From contig JAESPE010000004.1 of NCBI GenBank assembly GCA_016756835.1, positions 1-64,000 of the forward strand: a DNA stretch of 64,000 bases. Reading direction: 5' to 3'. The notes beneath the pieces are model-generated. The model made no database searches and was not told the origin of the DNA. It saw nothing but the letters and a program-made list of their open reading frames with translations. The stretch comes from a gamma proteobacterium endosymbiont of Lamellibrachia anaximandri. Its GTDB lineage: Bacteria > Pseudomonadota > Gammaproteobacteria > Chromatiales > Chromatiaceae. Shown one piece after another: positions 10,579 through 30,836 of this stretch (positions within the stretch are counted from its first letter, which is position 1; each line of letters starts with the position of its first letter). The translations under genes and the position numbers were made by a program.

Positions 10579-10773
10579 GGCGAACTCCAGCAATCCCTGA
10601 GGGTGGAACATCAAGCGTGACGGGGCACGTCTTGCATTGCGATGATTTTCCTTCTTCTAATTGATATGTGATCAAATACTGAACTGTTGTATTTTACCTC
10701 TATTCATCGGTAACCTGATTTGTCACGCCGTTGAATGGCATCCACCCTGATATTCGAGCCTGGAAATCGAGAT

Positions 10774-11580
10774 ATGAAAAAAAGAATTATTGGAGCAGCT
10801 TCTCTGGTCTTGCTTCTGGCATCGTCGAACCTCTTCGCTGATGTGCTGAAAAATGACCGCTTCAATCTGCGCTTGGGTGGTTTTTTTGTTACCAATACCG
10901 AAGCGACTATCAGTTTTGTCAGTCCTGCTTTGGCAGGAATCTCGATCAATACCACGCGGGACCTGTCGATGAACGATACGACGAATGTCTTCCGTCTGGA
11001 CGGGTACTACCGTTTCACAGAGCAATCCTCCATCGACTTCTCCTACTACCGCGTAAACCGAGACGGCAGCACAGTACTCGATACGGAGATCCATTGGGGG
11101 GGAAATATATACCCGATCAATGCCAATCTCGATAGCAGCCTGAACACAGACACGTATAAAATCGCCTATGTCTGGTCATTTCATCATGATGAGAAGGTCG
11201 AGCTCGGCCTTTCCGCGGGCCTGCATATCACCTCGTTCAATGTGAAATTAAAGGGCACACTCAACGACATAACCATCCACAATGACTCAAACTCTGCCAC
11301 CGCACCCTTGCCTGTGGTTGGCTTCAAGCTCAACTACAATATCACCCCCAAGCTGATATGGATGAATAAGCTAGAGCTGTTTTACATCAAAATCGATAGT
11401 TTCAAAGGCAACTTCTCCGATTTCATGACTGCGCTTGAGTACCGGGCATTCGACAATATCGGCTTTGGCGTGGGTCTCAACTCCATCAATTCTGACTTGG
11501 AGCTCGAAGAGGGGGATGGGCTCCTTAGCCTGGACACCACCAACCTTGGTGCACTTGCCTACGCTTCGATCTATTTTTAA
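10774..11580 (+). CDS. Outer-membrane beta-barrel protein, family unknown
   Basis: From ATG 10774 the 268-residue product has a signal peptide (about 1-22, ending SSNLFAD). The rest has amphipathic strands with aromatic girdles (GYYRF, IDFSYYRV, KIAYVWSF, FKLNYNI) and the terminal Phe that marks outer-membrane barrels (ASIYF). Predicted to be a small barrel of about eight to ten strands. An in-frame ATG at 10735 lies before the signal peptide and is unlikely. It is followed after 91 bp by the ligand-gated channel gene on the same strand, so a shared transcript is possible but unproven. Confidence 0.65.
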   Translation: MKKRIIGAASLVLLLASSNLFADVLKNDRFNLRLGGFFVTNTEATISFVSPALAGISINTTRDLSMNDTTNVFRLDGYYRFTEQSSIDFSYYRVNRDGSTVLDTEIHWGGNIYPINANLDSSLNTDTYKIAYVWSFHHDEKVELGLSAGLHITSFNVKLKGTLNDITIHNDSNSATAPLPVVGFKLNYNITPKLIWMNKLELFYIKIDSFKGNFSDFMTALEYRAFDNIGFGVGLNSINSDLELEEGDGLLSLDTTNLGALAYASIYF

Positions 11581-11671
11581 TCATGGCAGCGCTGAAACTA
11601 CCAACCCGAAAGCGTGATCTGTACATTTGGAGTTCGATCCCAATGATACGCATTGACACGTTACAAGCCTG

Positions 11672-12664
11672 GTGAAGATACTCATATTTTGTCTCTTATC
11701 TGCAATCAGCTGGAGCAACTTCGCGGCTGAGCCCAGTGACGTTTTTATCGGCCTGAAGATCGACCAGATCACCAATATCGATCAAAAAGAGGAGAACTTC
11801 AGCGTCGTCGGCAACCTGCGTGTCGATTGGCATCAACCCCTCCTGGCCTTCGAACGCGAGCCAGGCATGCCAAGACATCGAACCTATACCCTGGCCACCT
11901 TTCTCAAGCTGCTGGAGGAGAAGCAGATCCGCTGGCCAGCCTCCATCTACCACAATCAACAGGGGCGCATGGATTTCCAGAATCGGCTCATCTCCCTGGC
12001 GGAAGATGGCACCGTTTTGTACCTGGCCCGGTTTACCTCAACCTTTCAGGCCCCGATGTTCGATTTCCGGATGTTTCCGTTCGATAAGCAACTCTTTTTT
12101 ATCCATGTGGATTCGATCTTTCCGGAGCGTCTGTTTAAATTCAAACAGATGGAAGGGTTCAGTGGGATAGGGGATCAGCTGGGTGAAGAGGAGTGGGTCA
12201 TTACCGATGTAAACACTCGCCTGACAACGCACAATGAATTTAACAAAGGAGAGGCCTCCCGTTTTGTGCTGGAATTCCACGCCGAGCGCCATCTCAATTA
12301 TTATCTGATGCGAATTTTGATTCCGGCACTACTGATCATTACCGTCTCCTGGTTCACCTTCTTTCTGCAGGACTACACCAAACGTATCGACCTGGCCGGC
12401 GGCAACCTGCTGCTCTTTATCGCTTTCAATTTTACCATCTCCGGTGATCTGCCCCGGCTTGGCTACATCACCCTGATGGACGCCTTTCTGGCAGGCACCT
12501 TTATCATTACCGTCTTGGTGGTATTGGGTAATGTCTGGCTGCGACGTCTTGAAAATCATGGCAGGCATGAGCTTGCACGAAAACTGGATATCTACGCAAT
12601 CACCAGCTATCCACTGGCCTACCTGTTGGGCGCCCTCATCTTGTGGATACACTTTTTCTGGTAA
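11672..12664 (+). CDS. Prokaryotic pentameric ligand-gated ion channel (Cys-loop receptor homologue)
   Basis: Homologue of the GLIC/ELIC channels, the bacterial relatives of nicotinic and GABA-A receptors. The 330-residue product (GTG start) has a signal peptide (1-19), an extracellular beta-sandwich domain carrying the family motif FRMFPFDKQ (residues 132-140, the loop equivalent to the eukaryotic Cys-loop but without the disulfide), and four membrane helices: M1 about 209-231, M2 about 240-257 (pore-lining, IAFNFTISGDLPR), M3 about 263-289, M4 about 306-328. The M2-M3 linker DLPRLGYIT closely resembles GLIC's NLPKTPYMT. The M3-M4 loop is short, as in all bacterial members. Ligand and ion selectivity cannot be read from sequence. 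Confidence 0.92.
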   Translation: MKILIFCLLSAISWSNFAAEPSDVFIGLKIDQITNIDQKEENFSVVGNLRVDWHQPLLAFEREPGMPRHRTYTLATFLKLLEEKQIRWPASIYHNQQGRMDFQNRLISLAEDGTVLYLARFTSTFQAPMFDFRMFPFDKQLFFIHVDSIFPERLFKFKQMEGFSGIGDQLGEEEWVITDVNTRLTTHNEFNKGEASRFVLEFHAERHLNYYLMRILIPALLIITVSWFTFFLQDYTKRIDLAGGNLLLFIAFNFTISGDLPRLGYITLMDAFLAGTFIITVLVVLGNVWLRRLENHGRHELARKLDIYAITSYPLAYLLGALILWIHFFW

Positions 12665-12751
12665 TTAGCGCTTTCCTGCAGGCGTTGATTGGATTGATCC
12701 ATCTGTACAGTGACGAAACCGCTTGCTGCACCGGGCATTCATCAGCAGCCT

Positions 12752-15700
12752 TCACTCAAACTCCAACAGCGGAGAGATTACTGGGGGTTTCTCATCTCCC
12801 TCTGTCTCATCCTTCTGCTTCTGACCCAGAATCTGTTCCAACGGACTGAATACCTTTTTGATGGTTCGCCCAAAACGATCCAGCTGGTTTGTCAGGTCGG
12901 CCTCAACCTCTTCAGTCAAACCACCCACTCCCTCCTTCGCTTTGGCCGCAACCTCTGTTTGCTGGATGGCCGCCAGACAGGGATTCTCTTCACTCACACC
13001 GACATCGCCGAAGGCAAGCAGCAGATAGGCAGGGTTGGCGACACCCGCAGCCACACCGGCAATGGTTTTCAATGTTCCCAGTTTTGTTGGTTTGATGGAC
13101 GGGGCATGCAGCCTGCCCTCCAGTTTCACCGGATTGGTCAGTGAAATCAGGGTCAGTTCCTTTGGTCGTGGATTGAGGATCATGTGGAGAGTCTCGTCAC
13201 GCAGATCAATCTCCCCAGCACCCGCAATGGTCAATTTCTTGGTATCGATCAACATGCTACGGGTGTATCCAACCCCCTTGTTGAAATCGAGCCGGTCAAC
13301 CAGACAGTTGAGATCAACCACCGGTTCATCTTTGAGGCCCATTTGAGGTAACAGGGTTCCCACAAAGTCTTTAAGTTTGAAGGGCAGATCCTGATTTTTG
13401 ATACGCCCCTCACCGCCCACCAGCACCAAGTGGCCATCCAACCCTGCCGCCACCTCACGCAGGCTCCATCCCGACCCGGAAATATCCATCGCGAAATCGG
13501 CACTGCCATCCACATCCTGTGTAACATCCAGCCTTTCCAACAGAACGCCATAGTCGAACCCGCTGACTTTTAGTTGCAGAGCCAATTGCGGCGGTGTTGT
13601 AGCTGCATTGGCGCTTGCAGTGGCATTTAAGCTACCTCCGCTATCCAGTTTTAAAACGATGGAGTTTAGGTGCAGTTCGCCTGCACTGAGCCCCACAGAT
13701 GCATGCATGCTGCCCACAGGGGTGCTGCCATGTACCAGTTTTGGAAATTTCAGATGCAGATTCATATCGAAGTGTATCAACACAGAGAGCGACATCGAAT
13801 GCTCTGAAAACAGCCATTCACTTTCCGACAAATCTTCCTGAGGTTGTGCCTCTCCCGCAAAAAGGGGCTGTAGATCTGCAAGATCAATGGCCTTGGCGCG
13901 CAACTCTCCCCGTATATCAGGCCTGTCGCCCTGCAATCCGATCTGCAGATCCCCGACTATCCTGCTCTTGCCTGCTTCTACCCGGAGTTTGGAAAACGCC
14001 ACCCGCTCCTCCGAGGCCATCGCTGCACCCTCCAACCGATAGGCGGGGGTTTCCGGCAGCGTCACTCCCGTCAGCTTCGACAGTGTTTGCAGCGAAGGGC
14101 AGTGGATCGAAAAAGACAGAGGCCCTTTGAGCTTGCCGGAGGCCCCATCCAAATGCAGTGACAGCGCTCCTTCCGTTTTCCCCAAGGTGATTTTAGTTGT
14201 AACCGGCAGAGAAGATTTCCCCTGCACCAGCGCAGTCAATTCAGGGCCTGTCGCCTGTAAATTGAAGGATTCACTCCGCAGCCCACCTTCGGCATTCAAT
14301 GTCACATTTTTTCCATTCAGAGAAGCGAATTGCACACGACTGATAGCAAGATCCAGGGGAGATGAACCGTCTGCCTTTCCAAAAATGATCTGTCCCGCCG
14401 ATGTTTCAACCCGAAGCTCCCCCTGTGCCAGCAACTCCCCCAGGGTTTGCCCGTTCCCGGCAAAGCGCAGCTGGATCTGTTGCAGATCTCCGCTCAGGTT
14501 CTCAGTCACACCCAAATGGGAGGCGATTTTTTCAAGTGCGACAGGGCCACTGGTCAGATCTGCGGTCAGCCTCTCGCCATTTGTCATCTGCAGACCACCC
14601 CGGAGAGGCACACCGTCCAGGCGCAACTGCAATCCCCCTATCCCGACTGTTTTGCCATCAATCTTCAGACGCCCTTTGAGCTTTTTAACCGGCAGAGGCA
14701 GCCCAGCGACCTGCTTGGCCGAGAGCGTCATATCCAGCGCCAACGACTCAGGCCAAGACACCTCCAGCGGCATGTCGAGCAGGCTTTTCTGAGGCACCTT
14801 TTTCGCCCCGCTTTGCACTTTTTGTGGTTTCTGCTTTGGGCTGATAAATGGCGCAAGATCGAGCCGTCTTGCCTGTAGACCGCCCTGAATGCGGGTGGCC
14901 ACCTGATCCAGATGCAGGGTCAACGCCCCGTAGATATCACTGCCACCGAACTTGGCGTTAATCCCTGTAAACGCCACCTGTGTCCCCTCAGCAGACATCT
15001 GTCCATCGATTTGGAAGGCACCAGTTTTGCGCAGTTTTCCCTTCAGCAACGGCAGATGTGACAACTCTTTGCCTTCAAGCCTGATAGTCAGATTGGTGGC
15101 CGTTTCTTCGCCCGGTATTATCGCCCCTGTCACCGTCAATCGATCACTGTCCGTCTGCGCCCCGGCCTCCAGTGGCCAGTTTGCCGCTTCAGCAAAAGTC
15201 CGTTGGCCCTCCCCCAGAGAGAACTGCAGTCTGGTTTCACGCTGTTCGAGCAGACCATTCAAGTCAACCTCGACCCGGCCACCTGTAACCTTCACGCTAC
15301 CATCTGCAACTGTGAACTCATCGAAACCATAGAGATTTCGAAGCCAACCGTTCAGGTCGAAAAACTGCACCCCAGACCCGGTCAAACGACTCGCACCCTG
15401 CAGGTCGGCAGAGGCGCCTTCCGGCAGGTAAGCACCAATCAAGCGCGACAGTTCATCACTAGAGTGGGCAGTCACTTTCCATGTCACCTGCTCACCTTTC
15501 AGCTCGGCATGAAGTTCGTTCTGTTCAGTATTCAAATCGAGACGGGCATTTGAGATACCTGCCGCAGTGATCAAACCGCTGAAACGCCCCAACAGATCTA
15601 CCGAGTGATAATCAAACCCGGCGGTCACCTGCAAGTCCCCTGTTGCTGAGAGACTGGCTTCGGCACGCTTTACCCGCAATATCTTCTGCGTGGCTCCACC

Positions 15701-16198
15701 ACCCTGATATACCAGCCGCAACTCCTCCAACTGCAATTCATCTATCACCGGCAGCCGCATTTCACTGGGAACAACAGAGGTTTCCGCGGCCTTTCCACCG
15801 GCAAATCTCCAGTTGCCACCCTGTTTCTCCGTGGACTCCAGCATCAGGTCGCCGCCCTGAAGCAGCAGTCGCTTGACCACCAGCTCACCATTCAACAGGG
15901 GCAGCAGTGACAGTTGCAGTTCCAGCTTCTTCAGTTTCAGCAGGTTAGCCCTGGATGCCCAGGCAGGATTGGCAACGGATATGTTTTCAGCCACCAGAGT
16001 GGGATGAAGGGATAGACCCAGTGCAAGTTCACCATTCAGGCTGACCTCACGCCCAAGGGTTTCACTGAGTCTGGCAGTAAGGAAGTCACGATTGACATTC
16101 AGCCAGTAAGAGGCCGTCAGCATCAAACCCATAACCAACAACAAAAGGATGGCCGCCACACCGGCAGACCAAAGCCAGACTCGTTTCATCTCAACCAT
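12752..16198 (-). CDS. AsmA-family protein, very large
   Basis: A 1148-residue envelope protein with one N-terminal membrane helix (about residues 8-32) and then the AsmA signature (FLTARLSETLGREVSLNGELAL), followed by long beta-rich repeats in the periplasm. The C-terminal AsmA-like region (about 880-1070) contains DLNCLVDRLDFNKGVG and IDLRDETLHM. AsmA proteins are relatives of the TamB/YhdP bridge proteins implicated in lipid transport or outer-membrane homeostasis. An in-frame ATG nine bases downstream is an alternative start. It is divergent from a beta-barrel gene. It is longer than the second AsmA-family protein in this window (33131-35266) but has the same plan. Confidence 0.9.
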   Translation of the reverse strand: MVEMKRVWLWSAGVAAILLLLVMGLMLTASYWLNVNRDFLTARLSETLGREVSLNGELALGLSLHPTLVAENISVANPAWASRANLLKLKKLELQLSLLPLLNGELVVKRLLLQGGDLMLESTEKQGGNWRFAGGKAAETSVVPSEMRLPVIDELQLEELRLVYQGGGATQKILRVKRAEASLSATGDLQVTAGFDYHSVDLLGRFSGLITAAGISNARLDLNTEQNELHAELKGEQVTWKVTAHSSDELSRLIGAYLPEGASADLQGASRLTGSGVQFFDLNGWLRNLYGFDEFTVADGSVKVTGGRVEVDLNGLLEQRETRLQFSLGEGQRTFAEAANWPLEAGAQTDSDRLTVTGAIIPGEETATNLTIRLEGKELSHLPLLKGKLRKTGAFQIDGQMSAEGTQVAFTGINAKFGGSDIYGALTLHLDQVATRIQGGLQARRLDLAPFISPKQKPQKVQSGAKKVPQKSLLDMPLEVSWPESLALDMTLSAKQVAGLPLPVKKLKGRLKIDGKTVGIGGLQLRLDGVPLRGGLQMTNGERLTADLTSGPVALEKIASHLGVTENLSGDLQQIQLRFAGNGQTLGELLAQGELRVETSAGQIIFGKADGSSPLDLAISRVQFASLNGKNVTLNAEGGLRSESFNLQATGPELTALVQGKSSLPVTTKITLGKTEGALSLHLDGASGKLKGPLSFSIHCPSLQTLSKLTGVTLPETPAYRLEGAAMASEERVAFSKLRVEAGKSRIVGDLQIGLQGDRPDIRGELRAKAIDLADLQPLFAGEAQPQEDLSESEWLFSEHSMSLSVLIHFDMNLHLKFPKLVHGSTPVGSMHASVGLSAGELHLNSIVLKLDSGGSLNATASANAATTPPQLALQLKVSGFDYGVLLERLDVTQDVDGSADFAMDISGSGWSLREVAAGLDGHLVLVGGEGRIKNQDLPFKLKDFVGTLLPQMGLKDEPVVDLNCLVDRLDFNKGVGYTRSMLIDTKKLTIAGAGEIDLRDETLHMILNPRPKELTLISLTNPVKLEGRLHAPSIKPTKLGTLKTIAGVAAGVANPAYLLLAFGDVGVSEENPCLAAIQQTEVAAKAKEGVGGLTEEVEADLTNQLDRFGRTIKKVFSPLEQILGQKQKDETEGDEKPPVISPLLEFE

Positions 16199-18896: not shown

Positions 18897-21128
18897 CTAC
18901 AGCTCTCCAGAGGGCAACTGTCCTGCACGTGCGATTATGGACGCCTCAATCTGATCAGCGATGGCCTCTTTTCGCTGCCGGTTTTCCTCCGACCGCGTCT
19001 CCACCCAAAGACCGAAACGACCCTGCTCCAGCCTGGAGATGTACACCTTCAGCGCACGCTGCCGGCGTTCACTCAGACTCGTCTCAGTCCTGCGGGCATC
19101 CGGTGTGTTAACGACCAGATAAATACGCAGACGTTCGCTTGGGTAGTCCGGGTGCTGGTACCAGTCGATATCATAACTCATGCGCCCGTATCCGGCATGG
19201 ACCTGAGTCGTGGGCCATGAAGTGGTGAATTCCTCCGCCGCAGCCAACAGTTGGGAGTCTATGTCTTGCCTGGATTGCTGCCTGCGCTCCGGCATTTGTG
19301 ACCTCCTCGCCAAGCGTTCTGCCGCCCGCGCCTGTTGCTTGTTATACGACTGCCAGGCTGTCTGCCCACCGATGGTTGCGGGCAGCAGCAGTGCAACGGC
19401 AACACAAGCCCATCCGAGGCGTCCAAGCCACCGGTTGAGTAGGTCGAAAACCGTGACTTCCAACTGCTCCCCGTCACCGCCGCCTGCCGTTGACACGCCT
19501 TGCCTCTCGTCACGTGACCCGGTCAAACGATCCCGCAGCTCCACCAGGTCGCCCCAGAGATCGCCGACGCCAGCCAGTACGGCACGAGCAGCAAAAATGA
19601 CAACGCCCATACCAAGCAGGGTCAGACTGGCAAGCAGCATGCGGTTATCCACTTCCAGATCCACCTGCTGGCCCAGTGCCAATAACCAAAACAGGTTCAA
19701 CTGATCTCCCAAGGCTTGCAGAGCCTCCCAGACCGCCTGGTAGTTTTCCAGCACGGAATAGAGCAACAGACAAAGGCTGATCAACGCCAGCCAGCCGGTA
19801 TGCCTTTTACTTAGTGGTGCCAACCACTGCCAAAGCCGTTTCGCCAGCAGACTAACGCCTGTGATGGTTACAAAAAGTGCACACAGCCAAAAGAGATCGA
19901 GTGGCGCCTCAAGCGGCCACAACTGGAGCAGGACGATCAACACCAATAATAGGTAAAAGGCCCAGGCGTTCGACCACCAGGGGGCAGTGCGATGTTCGAG
20001 TAGCGCTCGGATCTGTATCCCCAGACTGCCAAAGCCGAACACATACAGAGGAGTGCTCAGCGAGATATAGGGTCTGAATTGTGACAGTTCGAAACCAGCC
20101 CGCATGCCGCCTTCCAAGCCCCACATAACCACAACGCCAGCCAGCAGTGCCACCAGTCCGGGGTAACCCAGATACCGACCGGCAATAAGCGCCGCCAGTG
20201 GTATGGCCTCCGCCACGCCAAACCAGCGCCAGTAGACAGGCAACTTCCAGAACCTGTGGTAATCGGGATCGACCACGGCATTCACCAGCCAGAGATTCAA
20301 CTCGCGCCCCAAACCCAGAAGCAGCAGCCCCAACAGCACAGCTACAAGGCCTGGATACAGGGTCTGTGGCATCGCAGCATGCTGTGGCGGACGAAGCGTG
20401 CGTCCCAACAGCAGGTAGCCGGTGGCAGCCAGGAACTCTGCAGGCGTGTCCAGGATGAAGTCCAGCTTTAGATACTTCAGCTCAGTCAATCCCAACAAGG
20501 GCAGATCGGCCCGGATGGCACCCAGCCATACTGCAGCGTCGCGCGGTAGCTGAAACCCATCCAGTAGTACGCCAAACAGGGTAACCCCGATCAGCGATCC
20601 CAGAGCCACACCCAAGGAAACGCGGGAGAGACCCAGCGAGAACACAAACAGATAGAGTAATACCCGGAAGTGCAACACCGCCTGCAGCTTGATGTCGCCA
20701 CTGTAGCGCTCACCCCATAACCCCAGGCTCAGAGCCAGCAAACCCAGGATCAGAGCCAGCAAACCCAGGATCAGGGGCAACGCCCAAGCCGGGAGGGTAC
20801 GGCTGGCCAAGCGCTGCAGCGGTTCTGGTCTGCCCGCTAACCAAGCGAGAAACAGGGCTGCGAGATAGATGTCCGGGTATGCCGGCAGACTGATAGCGTC
20901 GTAGGAGATGTATAACGGCAACCCAAGACCGCCGAGCACCACCACCGCCAACCCCATCTTGCCGTACCGCTGGCCCAGCCACAGCGCCAAAGGCAGGATC
21001 AACCAGGGTGCCGACAATTTCACCATGTCCGCCAACTGAACATGGAAGGATAGCAGCAGGATTAATGGCAACCAGGCCCAAGCCCACAACCCGTCCCTCG
21101 CCCGGTCCGTTCCATGTTCGCTTGGCAT
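18897..21128 (-). CDS. Polytopic inner-membrane protein of unknown function
   Basis: A 743-residue protein with an N-terminal block of many hydrophobic helices (about 13 predicted between residues 15 and 540), then a short linker, another helix near residue 575-595 (LGWACVAVALLLPATIGG) and a soluble C-terminal domain of about 145 residues containing DIDWYQHPDYPSERLRIYLV. No transporter or enzyme motif is recognised. A 21-bp tandem duplication (20730-20771) repeats the seven residues LALILGL inside one helix. It is divergent from the SYLF gene. Confidence 0.7.
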   Translation of the reverse strand: MPSEHGTDRARDGLWAWAWLPLILLLSFHVQLADMVKLSAPWLILPLALWLGQRYGKMGLAVVVLGGLGLPLYISYDAISLPAYPDIYLAALFLAWLAGRPEPLQRLASRTLPAWALPLILGLLALILGLLALSLGLWGERYSGDIKLQAVLHFRVLLYLFVFSLGLSRVSLGVALGSLIGVTLFGVLLDGFQLPRDAAVWLGAIRADLPLLGLTELKYLKLDFILDTPAEFLAATGYLLLGRTLRPPQHAAMPQTLYPGLVAVLLGLLLLGLGRELNLWLVNAVVDPDYHRFWKLPVYWRWFGVAEAIPLAALIAGRYLGYPGLVALLAGVVVMWGLEGGMRAGFELSQFRPYISLSTPLYVFGFGSLGIQIRALLEHRTAPWWSNAWAFYLLLVLIVLLQLWPLEAPLDLFWLCALFVTITGVSLLAKRLWQWLAPLSKRHTGWLALISLCLLLYSVLENYQAVWEALQALGDQLNLFWLLALGQQVDLEVDNRMLLASLTLLGMGVVIFAARAVLAGVGDLWGDLVELRDRLTGSRDERQGVSTAGGGDGEQLEVTVFDLLNRWLGRLGWACVAVALLLPATIGGQTAWQSYNKQQARAAERLARRSQMPERRQQSRQDIDSQLLAAAEEFTTSWPTTQVHAGYGRMSYDIDWYQHPDYPSERLRIYLVVNTPDARRTETSLSERRQRALKVYISRLEQGRFGLWVETRSEENRQRKEAIADQIEASIIARAGQLPSGEL
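20730..20771. repeat. 21-bp tandem duplication inside a membrane-protein gene
   Basis: The unit CAGAGCCAGCAAACCCAGGAT occurs twice in perfect head-to-tail order. It is in frame and adds seven hydrophobic residues to a membrane helix of the 743-residue protein, so the copy number may vary between strains without breaking the gene. Confidence 0.9.
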
Positions 21129-22190: not shown

Positions 22191-23117
22191 TTACTCCCGT
22201 TTGAGAAAATACTCAACAATCAAACCGACAGGCAATTCAGCCTCGGCGATAAGCACTTCGCAGTGCCCTGTACGTTCCATCAGATAATCAAGAAAAACCA
22301 ATCCGGGCAGTATTTTTTCGGCCTTCGGCAGAGACGATTTCAAATTATTGTACTGGGCCGGTGAAAGTCCCCGAAGCTCAGACATTCTATCTTTCAGGGC
22401 ATTTCTGGTAAGTGTTCTATTATAGTACCCAGCCCCATTCTCTCCGATAACAAAAGAGGTAATGGTGTTCGCGGCCAGTGCGATAATTCGATCCGTGTTT
22501 TCCGGTAATTCCTTGAAATTACCGTCAAGAAACCTACTGAAATTTTCTTGTGTTTCGTCCAGCGTGGAAGCACGTTCCACAAAACTCTCATAGGCGAGTT
22601 CGTAACCAACAGGAATTGAGCGTGATTGGACTTTATCGTTGTTCCACCAGGCGATCTGAATGCTCTTACTCCCGGAATCACTAACGAGCTTATTGGGCGC
22701 ACCGCCAGTGGCGGCAAGATAACCCACCTCACCTTCTCTTTCGCCTTCAGCGACTTCAATGGCTATGCCGATTTCACCAGCCAGATCGATAACCTGCTGG
22801 TGGTTTCTGGCGTTCCTTATGGCGCTGGTGGCAATGGCAAGAACTGTCGTCGCGCCTCTGTCCCTGCAATAGCTCACAAATTGAGAGAGTGTATCCTCTA
22901 TCTGCCTGAATTTACTCCGGCCGATCATCCCGTGGTTTTCCGTAACCTCTTTTCCAATCTCCAGCTGTTCTTTCCTGATCAGTTCTGTCGTGACTCTACC
23001 GTTAACTTTCTGCCCAAAGACAAACTTGAAGTTCTTGCTTCCCATGTCAATTGCACCAACCATACTTGGTCCTTCTTTGGCACAGGATAGTTGAGTAATG
23101 GTGTTTTCACTGATCAT
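22191..23117 (-). CDS. Divergent Ppx/GppA-like phosphatase
   Basis: A 308-residue member of the exopolyphosphatase/GppA actin-like ATPase-fold family. Recognisable motifs are AIDMGSKNFKFVFG (phosphate 1 loop), AIATSAIRNARN, and GEREGEVGYLA where the catalytic glutamate is expected. The second phosphate loop, usually D-x-GGGS-x-E, reads SDSGSKSIQI, so the conserved Gly and Glu are partly lost. Only the Ppx N-terminal core is present, without the HD-like C-terminal domain of GppA. The start could also be the internal ATG at 23063, which lies directly before the phosphate 1 motif. Substrate uncertain. Confidence 0.75.
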   Translation of the reverse strand: MISENTITQLSCAKEGPSMVGAIDMGSKNFKFVFGQKVNGRVTTELIRKEQLEIGKEVTENHGMIGRSKFRQIEDTLSQFVSYCRDRGATTVLAIATSAIRNARNHQQVIDLAGEIGIAIEVAEGEREGEVGYLAATGGAPNKLVSDSGSKSIQIAWWNNDKVQSRSIPVGYELAYESFVERASTLDETQENFSRFLDGNFKELPENTDRIIALAANTITSFVIGENGAGYYNRTLTRNALKDRMSELRGLSPAQYNNLKSSLPKAEKILPGLVFLDYLMERTGHCEVLIAEAELPVGLIVEYFLKRE

Positions 23118-23147
23118 GGGTGATTGGAGCTGATAAGGAGGTTATAG

Positions 23148-23207
23148 ATGCGTTTAGGTTATCCAAGACTCAGGCTTTATGGGCACCAAAATCAGGAGTC
23201 AGAGTAA
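23148..23207 (+). other. Short ORF with a strong Shine-Dalgarno
   Basis: AAGGAGG at 23135-23141 stands six bases before ATG 23148 and a 19-residue frame (MRLGYPRLRLYGHQNQESE). It is divergent from the Ppx-like gene by about 30 bp. It may be a leader peptide, a small protein or the surviving 5' end of a lost gene. No gene follows in 23208-23432. Confidence 0.35.
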
Positions 23208-23432
23208 AAGCCAATGCAATCTAATCTGCATCTGGTTGGGCCGTTCTCTCCAGTTTAGACCAAACCAGATGTTCTCGTTTTTATCGGAACCGTCCTACTC
23301 CGAGCCCTTGACCGACGAACCTTGCGCTACCAAGACCAAGCGTCAGTTGTCGACAGTTTGTTGACGTTCATGCAATCAGTGACACATGACAGGTCACCTG
23401 TCCAGCCAATGGTAACAAAATAGTGCTACAGG

Positions 23433-26400
23433 CTATTGTCTGGCGTTTATCCATTTTGCCAGTGTAATGAACATCAAATCAGGATTGACCGGCTTGGAAA
23501 TATGGTCATTCATGCCAACCGCCAAGACCTTCTCCCTGTCCCCTTTCATCGCATTGGCCGTCAACGCAATAATAGGCAAATCCTTGAATTTCTTCTGCTC
23601 TCTTATTTGGCGGGTCGCTTCATAGCCATCCATGACCGGCATCTGGCAATCCATTAGAACACCATCGAAGTCCTCCTTGGCCAGGAACTCCAGCGCTTCC
23701 TGTCCATCGAACGCCATTTCAACTCTCATCCCACTCATGGTGAGGATATCCAGCACGATTTCCCGGTTTATTTCGTTGTCCTCAACCAACAGAATCTTGG
23801 CACCACGCATACTTACAATAGCCTGATCGACATCCATCTCAGTTTGATTGCCCAATGCCCTGTTTTGCGAAGACTCACTCTGTTGAGTCTTCAGGCGAAC
23901 TGTGAATCTGAAGGTGCTACCGGCGTCTTGTTCACTTTCCACCGCTATTTCACCATTCATCAATTGGACGATCTTCTTGGAAATGATTAAGCCGAGGCCA
24001 GTCCCCCCATACTTACGGGTTGTCGAGCTATCAGCCTGACCAAAGGGCTGAAACAGTCCTTCCAGCTGTTCCTGGGACATGCCGATACCAGTGTCCTTTA
24101 TGGCAAACTGTAATACGACTTCATGGCCACTCTCTTCTTTCAAGGCAACATTCAACGAAACACTATCACCCGCATCGCCGAACTTCACTGCATTACTCCC
24201 CAGGTTGATAAGAACCTGGCTTAGACGTAATGGGTCACCATTCAGTGCCATAGGAACATCCCGCCCAATTCGGACCAAAAGCCGAATACTCTTTTCCTCG
24301 GCCTTGAACCGTAGCAGGTTAACAAAATTGTCGATGACATCCTTGAGATTAAAATCGACTTCTTCAAAATTTAGTTTACCCGCCTCGATCTTGGAAAAAT
24401 CAAGGATGTCGTTTAGGATCCCAAGCAGGTTTTCAGCTGAGCGGTGAGCCTTGCCTATATAATTTTTTTGCTTGTCGTCCAGCTCAGTTTGCAATGCAAG
24501 ATGTGTCATGCCGATGATGCCATTCATCGGTGTGCGGATTTCGTGGCTCATGTTGGCCAGGAAGTCACTTTTCGAGCAATTAGCTGACTCAGCGACCTCT
24601 TTTGCTTCAGCCAGCGTCTGCTCAGCCGCCTTGCGTTCAGTGATGTCCTGAACAGTGCCTTCAGACCGAATGATCTCGCCTGAGTTGCTACAGTGATATC
24701 CGCACCTCTCCTGGACCCACCGAACATCATCATCGAAAGACTTCCGGACAATCCTGTATTCAAAGATGTGAAGGACACCATTTTTCTTAGAGTTCTCGTG
24801 CTGTTCCACTACATAATCGCGATCATCAGGATGAACAAGCCCCAGGTACAGCTCATACTCCAAATCGAATGCCTCAGGATCAACACCAAAAATACGGAAA
24901 ACCTCTTCCGACCAATACAGTTTTCCGGTAATTAAATCATGGCTCCAGTTTCCAGTATGGGATATCCGCTGTGCCTCAGCCAATTTCTGCGCATAGTTAT
25001 CGGCATCCCTCTCTGCGAATTCAGCTGCCACAACGCGATCTTGCAGTTCCCGACTTAGTCGCCTGTAATTGGTAACGTCCTGGCTTGTACCGCGATAGCC
25101 TGAAAAAACACCATCCGTAAAATATGGCTTTGCCGTCACATTGAATTGAAGGGCCTGACCGAGGAAGTTCTCTATCTTGCACGGAACCTTTTTGATGGGT
25201 CGTCGAGTTTCAATCTTTTCAAGAAGGGTATCGATGCCAGGTTGATCAGGGTCAGGTAACATCAACTCATGAAACTGTTTGCCGATATAGTCATTTGGAT
25301 TAATACCGGTTATATCTTTCATCCGCAATGAGATGTCAGTGAAACGCAATTGTGAATCCGTTTCCCATAACCAATCGGATGCAGTTTCCCTGAAATCAGC
25401 AAGTTTATTTTTTGTTATATTCCAACCTTTCCGGGCAAGCCTGCTACCGGCAACTCCCCATGAGGCAAGCGCCGATACAAGAATCAACAAAACGATAATG
25501 ACAATGTTTTCGATATGACTCTTGAAAATTGCACTGTAGACTGATGCCAGGTTTATTTGAGAAACGATTGTTAAATAATTATCACCGACAGTCACATTCC
25601 TGAAGGTAAACAGGTACTGATCACTCTCTATTTGTCCATTTGAAGCCGAGGCAACGTACTTAAACACCTTGGAAAAATCTGTAGGGAACGCAGCTTCTTT
25701 ACCGAACATAAAACCCCATTCCGCCTCTTCTGTAGGGCCGATTAAATAGTGGCCGTTTTGGTCAAGAAGCAGTGGAAACCCAGATGATGTGGCTGGTATC
25801 ATTTCGCGGATTGTCTTCAGCAAATAGTGACCGCGATAATTCATCACCAATACGCCGATTTTACTGCCGGAAGGGGAAAAAACAGGTGCAGACACTCTCA
25901 AAGTCGGTTTATAAGGTTGCTCTATTGCGCCTTTTTCCATATTGAGGTCAAATTGTGAAATGAAGTGCTGACCCTGTCCCTTCGCCACTGCCTTCTTGAA
26001 GTAGTAACGGCCAGATTTATCCTGGAGTTGCGCTTTGGAAACACTGATGGGTGCGCCGTCATTGTAATTGACGCGAACAACCTCCCTGCCATCGATATCC
26101 AGTATACGGATCTGATCGAAAACCTTTTTTTCCAGCGCGAAAACCAGGAGTTTATTTGACAGACTTATCCTGGCTTCAGGAACCTTCATTTCCAAGGCGT
26201 CTTCTAGATCCTTGTCCTTGGATAGAATGCGAAGATCGCTGATCACATCCCCAAGTTCTTCTCTGAAAAACTCCGCCGCCAGTCTGACATTGCTTTTTGC
26301 GGAAGTATTCAGTTCAACAATAGATACTTGTGCCTGGCTAAAGAAAATACCAAGTGCCAGCAACAAAATCACAACCACAGCAGGGAAAAATAGCTTCAGG

Positions 26401-26453
26401 GCTATTTTTAGCTGTTCTTTTGTTGAGTCCTTTGGCATTTCTCTCACCCCCAC
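23433..26453 (-). CDS. Hybrid sensor histidine kinase (Cache-PAS-PAS-HisKA-HATPase-REC)
   Basis: A 1006-residue membrane kinase. Domains in order: membrane helix (about 17-38), periplasmic double-Cache domain (about 45-305), second helix (about 315-335), PAS (about 355-460), PAS with PAC (about 490-610), HisKA with phosphoacceptor His637 in SHEIRTP, HATPase with N-box Asn750/Asn754, DTGIGM and GTGLGL, and a C-terminal receiver with Asp935 (LMDCQMP) and Lys987. All catalytic residues are present. There is no HPt domain, so the phosphate must pass to a partner elsewhere. It begins 15 bp after the hemerythrin-pseudoreceiver gene on the same strand, so the two form an operon. Confidence 0.95.
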
Positions 26454-26468
26454 TACTTAAATTTTCTA

Positions 26469-27341
26469 CTATTGATTGATGGCTTTAACAGCTGCTTCGA
26501 AAAAGGTTTGAATACCAATTGGCTCCTCTATGCAATGAGTCGCTCCAGCAACCAGTCCCGACTCCATTGCCCCACGCTCCTCTCGCGCTGAAATCAGCAA
26601 CACAGGGATACCTGCAAATGAACTACCCTTGATTTCACGCAATTTTCCTATAAATGGTATTGCTTCCTGGTCATCTTGTTTCCAACCATAAACAATGAGG
26701 TTAGGTAGGTGGCTTTCGAGTGACTGCATTGCATCATCTGCATGAGAATATTGCTGAATTCCCCTGACATCTGCAATTTCAAGGATGCAAGCGATGATGT
26801 TCCTGAAATTTCGGCTCTTACTGACGACCAGGATTGCGGCATCATTCCAGTTGACGGACTTTGGAATCAAATCATCGGCGCCCAGCATTTTGAGCTGTTT
26901 TGAATCCGTTCGTAGAGATTCAGTTATGTCAAGAACCTCCGGGTTATTTTCCGCATATGGACTAAATCCCATGTCTTGTTTCAGGATGTGATTAATGAGC
27001 CAGTTTTTCAGGAAGTCCAGAAATTCATCTTTAACGGTATCTTCTTTTTTCTCGGAAAAACGGCGCGCGATATCAACAACCTGTTCGATGAGTTTTTCAT
27101 GTCGCCGCTTGTGATCCTCGAATAAAGGGTATCTGCATGCCTTCATTACCCGTTCTTCGCGGGAAAAATGATAAAGGGTGTAATCGATCAACGTGTTAAG
27201 GGCACTACCAAGGGCCTTTCTATCCTCCACTACGCCGACATGCTGATGAAGTTGATTGATCAGTTTGACAATGATTTTATGATCCTGATCGATCGAAGGA
27301 TTGCCGACGCTCATAGACTCCGACCACTCGATAAAATCCAC
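26469..27341 (-). CDS. Bacteriohemerythrin fused to a degenerate receiver domain
   Basis: A 290-residue cytosolic protein. Residues 1-130 form a hemerythrin domain with all seven di-iron ligands: His21, His58, Glu62, His77, His81, His118 and Asp123. Residues about 165-290 have the alternating strand/helix pattern of a response-regulator receiver (AAILVVSKSRN, IPVLLISAREERGAM), but the phosphorylatable Asp is replaced by Gly219 (VYGWKQDD) and the conserved Lys-Pro is Glu-Pro (IEEPI). It is therefore a pseudoreceiver that cannot be phosphorylated in the usual way. Hemerythrins bind O2 or NO. It sits 15 bp upstream of the hybrid kinase. Confidence 0.9.
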   Translation of the reverse strand: MDFIEWSESMSVGNPSIDQDHKIIVKLINQLHQHVGVVEDRKALGSALNTLIDYTLYHFSREERVMKACRYPLFEDHKRRHEKLIEQVVDIARRFSEKKEDTVKDEFLDFLKNWLINHILKQDMGFSPYAENNPEVLDITESLRTDSKQLKMLGADDLIPKSVNWNDAAILVVSKSRNFRNIIACILEIADVRGIQQYSHADDAMQSLESHLPNLIVYGWKQDDQEAIPFIGKLREIKGSSFAGIPVLLISAREERGAMESGLVAGATHCIEEPIGIQTFFEAAVKAINQ

Positions 27342-28247: not shown

Positions 28248-30836
28248 TTATTGGACAGCCCAGTCTGGCACGAAGATCGGTACCGGTATCTCCGGAAGTC
28301 CGTGCGCCCGCAATACCTCACGGGCATCTTCGGCGTCGATGAGCGCTAAAGCCCGGGCAGCCTGGAGTGAAAGGCGCTCGGAGAGGTTTGGCTGGCCGCC
28401 CCATAGCTCCGCGTACGGAAGGGATTCCGGGTCCGGCGAGTCTTCCCCCAGGGCCTTGGCGAGCAGCGGAATCGCCTGCTTGGCGCGCAACCGGCCGAAC
28501 GCCTGATAAGTATAGGCGCGCACAACATCCATATTGGCCATCGCCACGCTAAACGGAAGGAGTGTCTTGCTAAACTCCATGATGGGCTCTACGGCACGAG
28601 GACTGCCAATGCGGCCGAGAATGTAAAGCAAGGCGGCCAGAGAATTGTCATTGTAATGAGACCGTTGACCCAAGGCGTCAATGCATGAAGGAACTCCAGC
28701 TTCGCCAAGTCGGATGAGCGCCTGTTCGGCAGAATCCGCAATCTGCGCAAAGATCTTGCGCCGCATGCTCGGTGGGCGCTGTGTCTTGTCGCCGTTGTCC
28801 CAGCCGCCCAACTGTGAGATCAAGGGTGGTGCGGCGGATGCATCGCCGATTTCGGCAAGTGCGTCGCAAGCAGCGGCGATGATACCGGTGTTGTTGATTT
28901 CCAAAGCGCCGATGATCGGCTCGACCGCATCGACAGCACTGATCGCGCCCAAAGAGCGGATAGCCATCTCGGTTTCTACCGAATCGGGCGGCAATTCCCA
29001 TGCAGATAGCCGCGCCCCGAAGACCGCGACAAGCTTTTCGGTCAGCCTGAAGCGCACCGCATCACCAACCAGGATGCCACTTGCCACAGCTTCGGCAGCC
29101 AGGTACGGATTGGTCTGCACGAGGTCATCCACCAGTTCGTCGGCATTGGGCAGTAGGCCCGCCTTCGCTATGATGACCTCATCCCACGGACCACGCGACA
29201 GGCCGACAACCCCATCGAAGGTGGCCGCTTCGACATGGGCGAGCAGGACATCGACTGGGCAGGCCTCCGCCGCAAAGTACTCCTGCATGAGCTGATGATA
29301 GAAGCGCGTACCCTGTTCGGTGTGCTCCAGCAAGCTCGCACGGCACGCCACCTCCACGAGCTCAGAATCGGCGTGGGCCGTAACGACTTCTTCCGGCAAC
29401 TCAGTGGATAGACCCTTTGTCAGTACCTCGCTCGCGAGTGCCGAGAGCCGGGCAACTATGTCAGCGTAGGGCACCCAGCCAGCCGTCTGGCGTCGATGCT
29501 CGCGCTCCCACAGCACCGCGACGAGCTTGCGGAACAACACGCCGGGATTCGCAGGCAATGCACCTGTGGCCGACTCCCGGGACACGGCCATCAGCGCCAC
29601 CAACAGGTAGGGGTTGCGCGCGAGGGTCACTAAACGCCGGGAGCCACCCGCAAAACCGCCTGCTGGAGCGAACTGCACTTCCTGCAGGCCGATGCGTTCG
29701 AGGAATTCTTCGGCGTCATTCTCCAGATAGACGGTCGCGAAGCGACGCACACGCGCTTCGTCCATGGGTTGCACTTCGACGCACGGTAACTCAAGGTCTA
29801 GTTCAGCGCCGTAATCGCCGCTACGGCAAGTCACGACAACGCGGCAATCTGGCTCACGCGCGAGAAAGCCCTTGAGCGCAGCTGCCTTTGTTGAACCGAA
29901 GGCACCTATCTCGTTCAGACCATCAAGCAGCAGCAGGAGGCTGTCGAGTGCATCCAGAGGATCGCTGTCGAAAGGCCAGTGAGCCCGCAGGAAATCCTCA
30001 AAAGTGCTTTCATTGGCCCAGGCTGGCAGTCGCAGCAACAGGGGAAGCGGCGCAGAACGTTTGCTCAAGCGCTCGCGAGCCGCCTCCATCGCAACGCGAC
30101 GAAGCGTGGTGGTCTTGCCAGCACCGGGCGCACCCAGCAGTATGAAGCGGCTGAAGTGATCTAGCGCCTCGGCGATGCTCTCAACATGTGCCGGCTGGCC
30201 GACACCAATAGAACCTGAAACATCAGGCGCATCGCCGAGCAGCGCGAACTCACCCTCTAGCCCCCACGCAGCCATCACCCGTGGCGGGGGACGCACAGCC
30301 GAATGACTTGTTGTGTCCTCTGCTTCGCCGGCAAGGGCCACGAAATCGTGCACGCCCTTGATGGATTCCATCTCTGCGATCAAGTGGAGGAGGTAGCTCG
30401 ACACCGGGTCAAGGCGCGGGTCCAGTCCCTCCGTAGCCTCGATGTCGCGGATTAGTTTCGCAAGGGCGGCGCTGTAACAGTTCGAGTCGTTCGCACGGGT
30501 GAAGTCCACCCTCTGCGCGAGCTGAAGATCGAGCGGCGGTTGAGGCACAGGACGAAGCAGGATCGGATAGATACGCTTCTTTCTGTCGGCAGCGCGCGCC
30601 AGTTCCTTCAGGCAATAGTCCGACTCGACGTAGGCTGGGGACACGACGGCCAGCATGCCGGCCGAGGCGTCGAGCGACTTCTCGATAGCGCGTCGCCAGT
30701 CCTCACCCGTAACCAGCGCGGCATCCAGACGATCCATCCACAATTGCACCCCTGCCGCCCGCAGGTCTGCGGCAAGACGAAGCGCAAAAGCATCCTCCAG
30801 ATGGCTGTAGCTGAGAAATAGATGGGCGTTTGGCAT
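28248..30836 (-). CDS. TIR-NACHT-HEAT repeat protein, candidate anti-phage NLR-like effector
   Basis: An 862-residue cytosolic protein with three modules. The TIR domain (about 1-135) has FLSYSHLEDA, SPAYVESDYC and a predicted catalytic Glu78 in CLKEL, as in NAD-cleaving TIRs. The NACHT NTPase (about 225-510) has Walker A GAPGAGKT (235-242), Walker B LLLLLDGLNEI with Asp305, a sensor strand VVVTCRSGDY, and the distal FYHQLMQEYFAA motif typical of NACHT proteins. Residues about 600-840 are PBS-lyase/HEAT-like repeats (AVEPIIGAL, AIPLLAKAL), probably the sensor. TIR-NTPase proteins of this STAND type act in abortive anti-phage immunity. It stands alone and looks GC-richer than its AT-rich flanks, close to tRNA-Phe. 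Confidence 0.9.
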   Translation of the reverse strand: MPNAHLFLSYSHLEDAFALRLAADLRAAGVQLWMDRLDAALVTGEDWRRAIEKSLDASAGMLAVVSPAYVESDYCLKELARAADRKKRIYPILLRPVPQPPLDLQLAQRVDFTRANDSNCYSAALAKLIRDIEATEGLDPRLDPVSSYLLHLIAEMESIKGVHDFVALAGEAEDTTSHSAVRPPPRVMAAWGLEGEFALLGDAPDVSGSIGVGQPAHVESIAEALDHFSRFILLGAPGAGKTTTLRRVAMEAARERLSKRSAPLPLLLRLPAWANESTFEDFLRAHWPFDSDPLDALDSLLLLLDGLNEIGAFGSTKAAALKGFLAREPDCRVVVTCRSGDYGAELDLELPCVEVQPMDEARVRRFATVYLENDAEEFLERIGLQEVQFAPAGGFAGGSRRLVTLARNPYLLVALMAVSRESATGALPANPGVLFRKLVAVLWEREHRRQTAGWVPYADIVARLSALASEVLTKGLSTELPEEVVTAHADSELVEVACRASLLEHTEQGTRFYHQLMQEYFAAEACPVDVLLAHVEAATFDGVVGLSRGPWDEVIIAKAGLLPNADELVDDLVQTNPYLAAEAVASGILVGDAVRFRLTEKLVAVFGARLSAWELPPDSVETEMAIRSLGAISAVDAVEPIIGALEINNTGIIAAACDALAEIGDASAAPPLISQLGGWDNGDKTQRPPSMRRKIFAQIADSAEQALIRLGEAGVPSCIDALGQRSHYNDNSLAALLYILGRIGSPRAVEPIMEFSKTLLPFSVAMANMDVVRAYTYQAFGRLRAKQAIPLLAKALGEDSPDPESLPYAELWGGQPNLSERLSLQAARALALIDAEDAREVLRAHGLPEIPVPIFVPDWAVQ

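Follow-up and report, generated by a model that had tools for sequence, protein, structure and literature searches.

The window, by which we mean the whole 64,000-nucleotide stretch of symbiont DNA analysed here, carries on its forward strand an intact open reading frame (GTG start to TAA stop, 330 aa) for a subunit of a pentameric ligand-gated ion channel (pLGIC), which sits 91 bp downstream of a same-strand gene for an outer-membrane beta-barrel protein and is followed on the opposite strand by an AsmA-family gene (Table 1). Because the copies in Escarpia symbionts begin with ATG at the same codon, this GTG is likely the start codon. Promoter and terminator scans around the channel gene gave no excess over shuffled sequence, and the sole same-strand promoter-like site in the promoter scan overlaps the channel's start codon.

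Table 1. Features of the channel gene and its surroundings in the window, with the identity of related channels.
Feature	Position	Strand	Details or basis
pLGIC subunit gene	11672..12664	+	330 aa; ortholog or close paralog of sTeLIC
Signal-peptide-like hydrophobic N-terminus (aa 1-19)	11672..11728	+	Hydropathy; pLDDT <50 for aa 1-18
Predicted periplasmic ligand-binding-type beta-sandwich domain (aa 22-207)	11735..12292	+	Pfam, AlphaFold2 model, alignment
Pro-loop FPFDKQ	aa 135-140		In beta-sandwich domain
Vestibular residues W88/R99/L106/Y117			In beta-sandwich domain; alignment to sTeLIC
Putative calcium-site acids E41 and E172-E174			In beta-sandwich domain; alignment to DeCLIC
M1 helix (aa 208-229)	12293..12358	+	AlphaFold2
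M2 pore helix (aa 235-259)	12374..12448	+	AlphaFold2; T-2' K-1' R0' D2' G6' L9' A13' F16' G20'
M3 helix (aa 268-295)	12473..12556	+	AlphaFold2
M4 helix (aa 299-329)	12566..12658	+	AlphaFold2
Outer-membrane beta-barrel protein gene	10735..11580	+	Weak PF13505 / AcfA-like, below curated cut-offs
Insert (outer-membrane protein gene and channel), ~2.1 kb	10584..12740	.	Absent from two sister species
AsmA-family gene, right-hand flank of insert	12752..16198	-	Context, outside channel
Identity of channel in symbionts			L. anaximandri 98%, L. barhami 92%, Escarpia spicata 82%, E. laminata 82%

Evaluating the translation against Pfam, we found both pLGIC domains above their curated cut-offs (PF02931, Neur_chan_LBD, E = 6.8e-11; PF02932, Neur_chan_memb, E = 6.3e-7), and phmmer comparison with the sequences of solved structures returned sTeLIC (E = 2e-189), DeCLIC (5e-82), ELIC (1e-26) and GLIC (~1e-22), such that the sTeLIC match and the two domains together exclude a chance likeness. 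A sequence-only reading of this DNA had already named a bacterial pLGIC here from a signal peptide, an FPFDKQ motif and four membrane helices, and all three were recovered: the N-terminus is hydrophobic, the motif is present within a segment whose F130, F132, P136, D138 and Q140 are invariant in the 41 aligned sequences, and hydropathy revealed four stretches (aa 207-235, 239-257, 263-294 and 305-330). The AlphaFold2 model (single chain, alignment of 41 sequences; mean pLDDT 84.3, pTM 0.73) folds as a beta-sandwich followed by four helices, so that both the M2 helix and the pLGIC subunit fold on which that reading had staked its assignment are there. Foldseek ranked sTeLIC first (E 1e-51, TM 0.84), then DeCLIC, then glycine and GABA-A receptors, with closed and active sTeLIC structures scoring alike. 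The label "GLIC/ELIC-like" needs narrowing, as the sTeLIC/DeCLIC branch is far closer by phmmer.

The same gene order (239-aa gene, outer-membrane protein gene, channel, AsmA-family gene) was found in the window and in two Lamellibrachia symbionts, and in the Lamellibrachia symbionts the outer-membrane protein gene belongs to the same insert as the channel. This insert is missing from genome G005 and from the E. spicata symbiont (G003), where ~70-80 bp separate the two flanking genes. The E. laminata symbiont (G002) has the outer-membrane gene and a cut channel from which window positions 11835 to 12740 are gone, leaving a remnant (L115:10964-12133) that joins the first 55-60 codons of the channel to the AsmA 3' flank. 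No transposon-marking repeats were found at the insert ends. We considered the channel and the outer-membrane protein as an obligatory functional unit and rejected this, given that a channel occurs without that protein in the E. spicata symbiont, and that in the E. laminata symbiont the protein's gene stands next to a dead channel copy.

Several further features of the window and its relatives were recorded alongside. A distant relative of the outer-membrane protein (34%) with one TGA in the matched frame occurs at G000:C214:9539-10360 and at G004:C1:165046-165867. The AsmA-family gene looks mosaic (68-88% identity to the L. barhami symbiont in 13-16 kb), and the left flank is mostly 92-96% identical to the same symbiont. 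Elsewhere on the minus strand lie an 862-aa protein (28248-30836) that carries TIR, NACHT and HEAT repeats and may serve in defence, a stretch of low GC (0.45-0.48; 22191-27341) that includes a hybrid histidine kinase and a hemerythrin-response regulator protein, and a 743-aa ORF with no Pfam match (18897-21128).

The window genome groups with the symbionts of cold-seep vestimentiferans (Lamellibrachia, Escarpia), and intact relatives of its channel are present in four congeneric genomes at 82-98% identity. In both Escarpia symbionts the intact channel occupies a second locus, adjoining META-domain and OprB-porin genes. Between the two gene versions dS is 1.0-1.13, whereas the outer-membrane gene beside the channel has a between-species dS of only 0.04-0.21 and all six genomes agree at 92-95% in the left flank; this argues that the versions did not simply diverge as orthologs along with the species, and points to either an old duplication with differential loss or the arrival of one version from outside. 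All pairs of intact copies gave dN/dS of 0.10-0.24, the between-version values being rougher with dS near 1, and the channel gene is thus under purifying selection. Compared with the L. anaximandri symbiont genome, identity reaches 97-100% over most of 10.5-13.75 kb (dipping to 91-94% in places) against mostly 83-96% in the flanks, which suggests, without proving, a recent exchange by recombination.

What is new here is this patchy gain-and-loss history of an sTeLIC-type channel among related symbionts. A broader reading, which we hold tentatively and rate at somewhat under even odds, is that the sTeLIC-type channel may be a mobile accessory trait in vestimentiferan symbionts, with two old versions at two chromosomal sites, swapped, lost and passed among symbiont species by recombination. 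If that were so, the channel would serve a condition that varies with host or site, and natural pairs with and without it could show what it does.

Beyond these symbionts, the sequence-only reading's description of such genes as scattered and rare agrees with what we counted, as a PF02931 gene was found in 12 of the 369 genomes sampled from the class and a relative of the window channel (E 1e-20 or better) in 19 of 194 genomes of the family. At least 290 residues precede the matched core, as in DeCLIC, in 33 of 54 inspected relatives, and these long-N-terminus relatives include records from Chloroflexota, Cyanobacteriota and methanogens; no such extensions occur in the tubeworm branch or its sisters. 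Extra N-terminal segments of ~300-430 residues are widespread in the sTeLIC/DeCLIC branch (L015, L017, L018, L022, L048, L070, L088 and others). Plasmid carriage was set aside, the one match being on a Legionella plasmid at 26% identity only, and no phage match to the channel was found.

An alignment to known channels, the check that the sequence-only reading had proposed, revealed that the window channel shares 273 of 315 residues (86.7%) with sTeLIC and that most of the 42 differing residues lie in the periplasmic domain (e.g., S91 for F, I92 for T, A119 for E, K139 for N). With M2 numbered from the LP at 22'-23', the sole difference from sTeLIC between -4' and 24' is at 20' (Gly here, Ser in sTeLIC). 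Position 2' is acidic throughout the 41 aligned sequences (D in 35, E in 6), in which -1' is K or R, 0' is R in 40, 9' is L in all and 16' is F or W; the sTeLIC/DeCLIC branch thus has its acidic pore ring at 2', unlike ELIC and GLIC with theirs at -1'/-2'. W75, L93 and Y104, which belong to the vestibular pocket of sTeLIC (PMC11988449), align with W88, L106 and Y117, and R86, the position mutated in PDB 6fvq, is unchanged as R99. The calcium-site acids of DeCLIC, E347 and E479-E481 (PMC9897478), align by phmmer with E41 and E172-E174, of which the latter three are invariant (41/41) and the former is kept in 40 of 41 sequences.

Observed for the window channel are thus its sequence, predicted fold, residue conservation and purifying selection, and with pore and pocket essentially unchanged from sTeLIC, we consider the same mode of action the best explanation (probability roughly 0.8). 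By transfer from sTeLIC (87% identity), five identical subunits would form a homopentamer whose pore crosses the inner membrane and whose beta-sandwich domains project into the periplasm. Alkaline periplasmic pH would open this pore at the 9' leucine ring (L247) and let cations pass, divalent cations would hold it shut via the interface acids E41 and E172-E174, and opening would be favoured by small aromatic compounds in the vestibular pocket (W88, L106, Y117), which lies behind the orthosteric site. Here the pentamer, the pH and calcium responses and the passage of cations are carried over from sTeLIC and DeCLIC. Since most of the 42 differences fall in the periplasmic domain, the part that senses pH and ligands, the pH set-point or the potentiators could differ from those of sTeLIC.

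Other modes of action fit the same fold, and they were weighed against these residues. An ELIC-like channel, which shares the fold and a phmmer match (E 1e-26), would open to primary amines via an orthosteric aromatic box, which we take to comprise F133, Y175 and F188 of ELIC; by the phmmer alignment this box is not kept (F133 to I149, Y175 to a gap, F188 to A195), 36 of the 41 aligned sequences have I, L or V at position 149, and loop C is shorter than in ELIC, all of which argues against amine gating of that type and makes it extremely improbable. A stimulus other than pH, either mainly calcium depletion or a host or symbiont metabolite with pH only modulating, is unlikely though less so: few residues of the subfamily are as conserved as the calcium-site acids, calcium depletion activates DeCLIC (PMC9897478), which is 43% identical in the structure alignment, and the sensor domain is where most differences from sTeLIC lie, but the 87% identity to sTeLIC and the unchanged vestibular residues favour sTeLIC-like action. 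The gene might also be a decaying, non-functional relic retained by chance in a symbiont genome, as the ~55-60 codons kept at the same site by the E. laminata symbiont and the one congener without any channel copy would allow; yet with the frame intact, all motifs present and dN/dS of 0.10-0.24 between species, we regard this as highly improbable, and the window gene is real, intact and very probably functional.

The sequence-only reading had called ligand and physiological role unknown, and for the ligand this was too pessimistic, given the alkaline-pH stimulus (PMC7336382) and vestibular site (PMC11988449) of sTeLIC; for the role it stands. The biological role of prokaryotic pLGICs is a long-standing open question, and our literature text search for ligand-gated ion channels together with Endoriftia found no linking paper. 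Because this kind of channel is already structurally known, interest lies in the natural variant and in its turnover among symbionts: as a close variant of a solved channel, its 42 natural differences test which periplasmic residues set alkaline gating, and sister species cleanly without the channel, or with a remnant, give a comparative handle on its role in tubeworm symbionts.

Among known channels sTeLIC is the closest, and Hu et al. (2018) reportedly found it to be cation-selective, inhibited by divalent cations and potentiated by Phe/Trp. It comes from the endosymbiont of Tevnia jerichonana and has been solved by crystallography and cryo-EM (PDB 6fl9, 6fli, 6fvq, 6fvr, 6fvs, 9ewa, 9ewl, 9ex4, 9ex6), including a barium complex (6fvs); it is opened by alkaline pH (PMC7336382) and has a vestibular potentiation site (PMC11988449). 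The window channel resembles it in having no extra N-terminal domain, in its near-identical pore, in its vestibular residues and in its predicted fold, and differs at the 42 mostly periplasmic positions and at 20'. The two genes also probably come from different symbiont genera, as the window symbiont probably belongs not to Ca. Endoriftia but to the provisional genus QGON01: the genomes carrying its relatives are labelled as congeneric with the window, and L. anaximandri symbionts have been placed in QGON01, distinct from Ca. Endoriftia (PMC12045306). DeCLIC (Desulfofustis; PDB 6v4a, 6v4s, 7q3g, 7q3h), which responds to calcium depletion (PMC9897478), falls in the same branch with the acid at 2', the calcium-site acids and a core ~43% identical by structure alignment, but its extra N-terminal domain (~300 aa) is absent from the 330-aa window ORF, which opens with the signal-peptide-like segment. 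ELIC (Dickeya/Erwinia) and GLIC (Gloeobacter) share fold and pro-loop and are far less similar than sTeLIC, and where ELIC has E at -1' the window channel has K, its acid lying at 2', and the aromatic box is not kept. In the tree, six tubeworm-symbiont sequences including sTeLIC form a clade (support 100/99) within which sTeLIC is equally close to both gene copies of the window genus (87 and 88%; fork support 87/29). Judged by its sequence, the window channel is the counterpart of sTeLIC within the sTeLIC/DeCLIC branch, a channel type already known.
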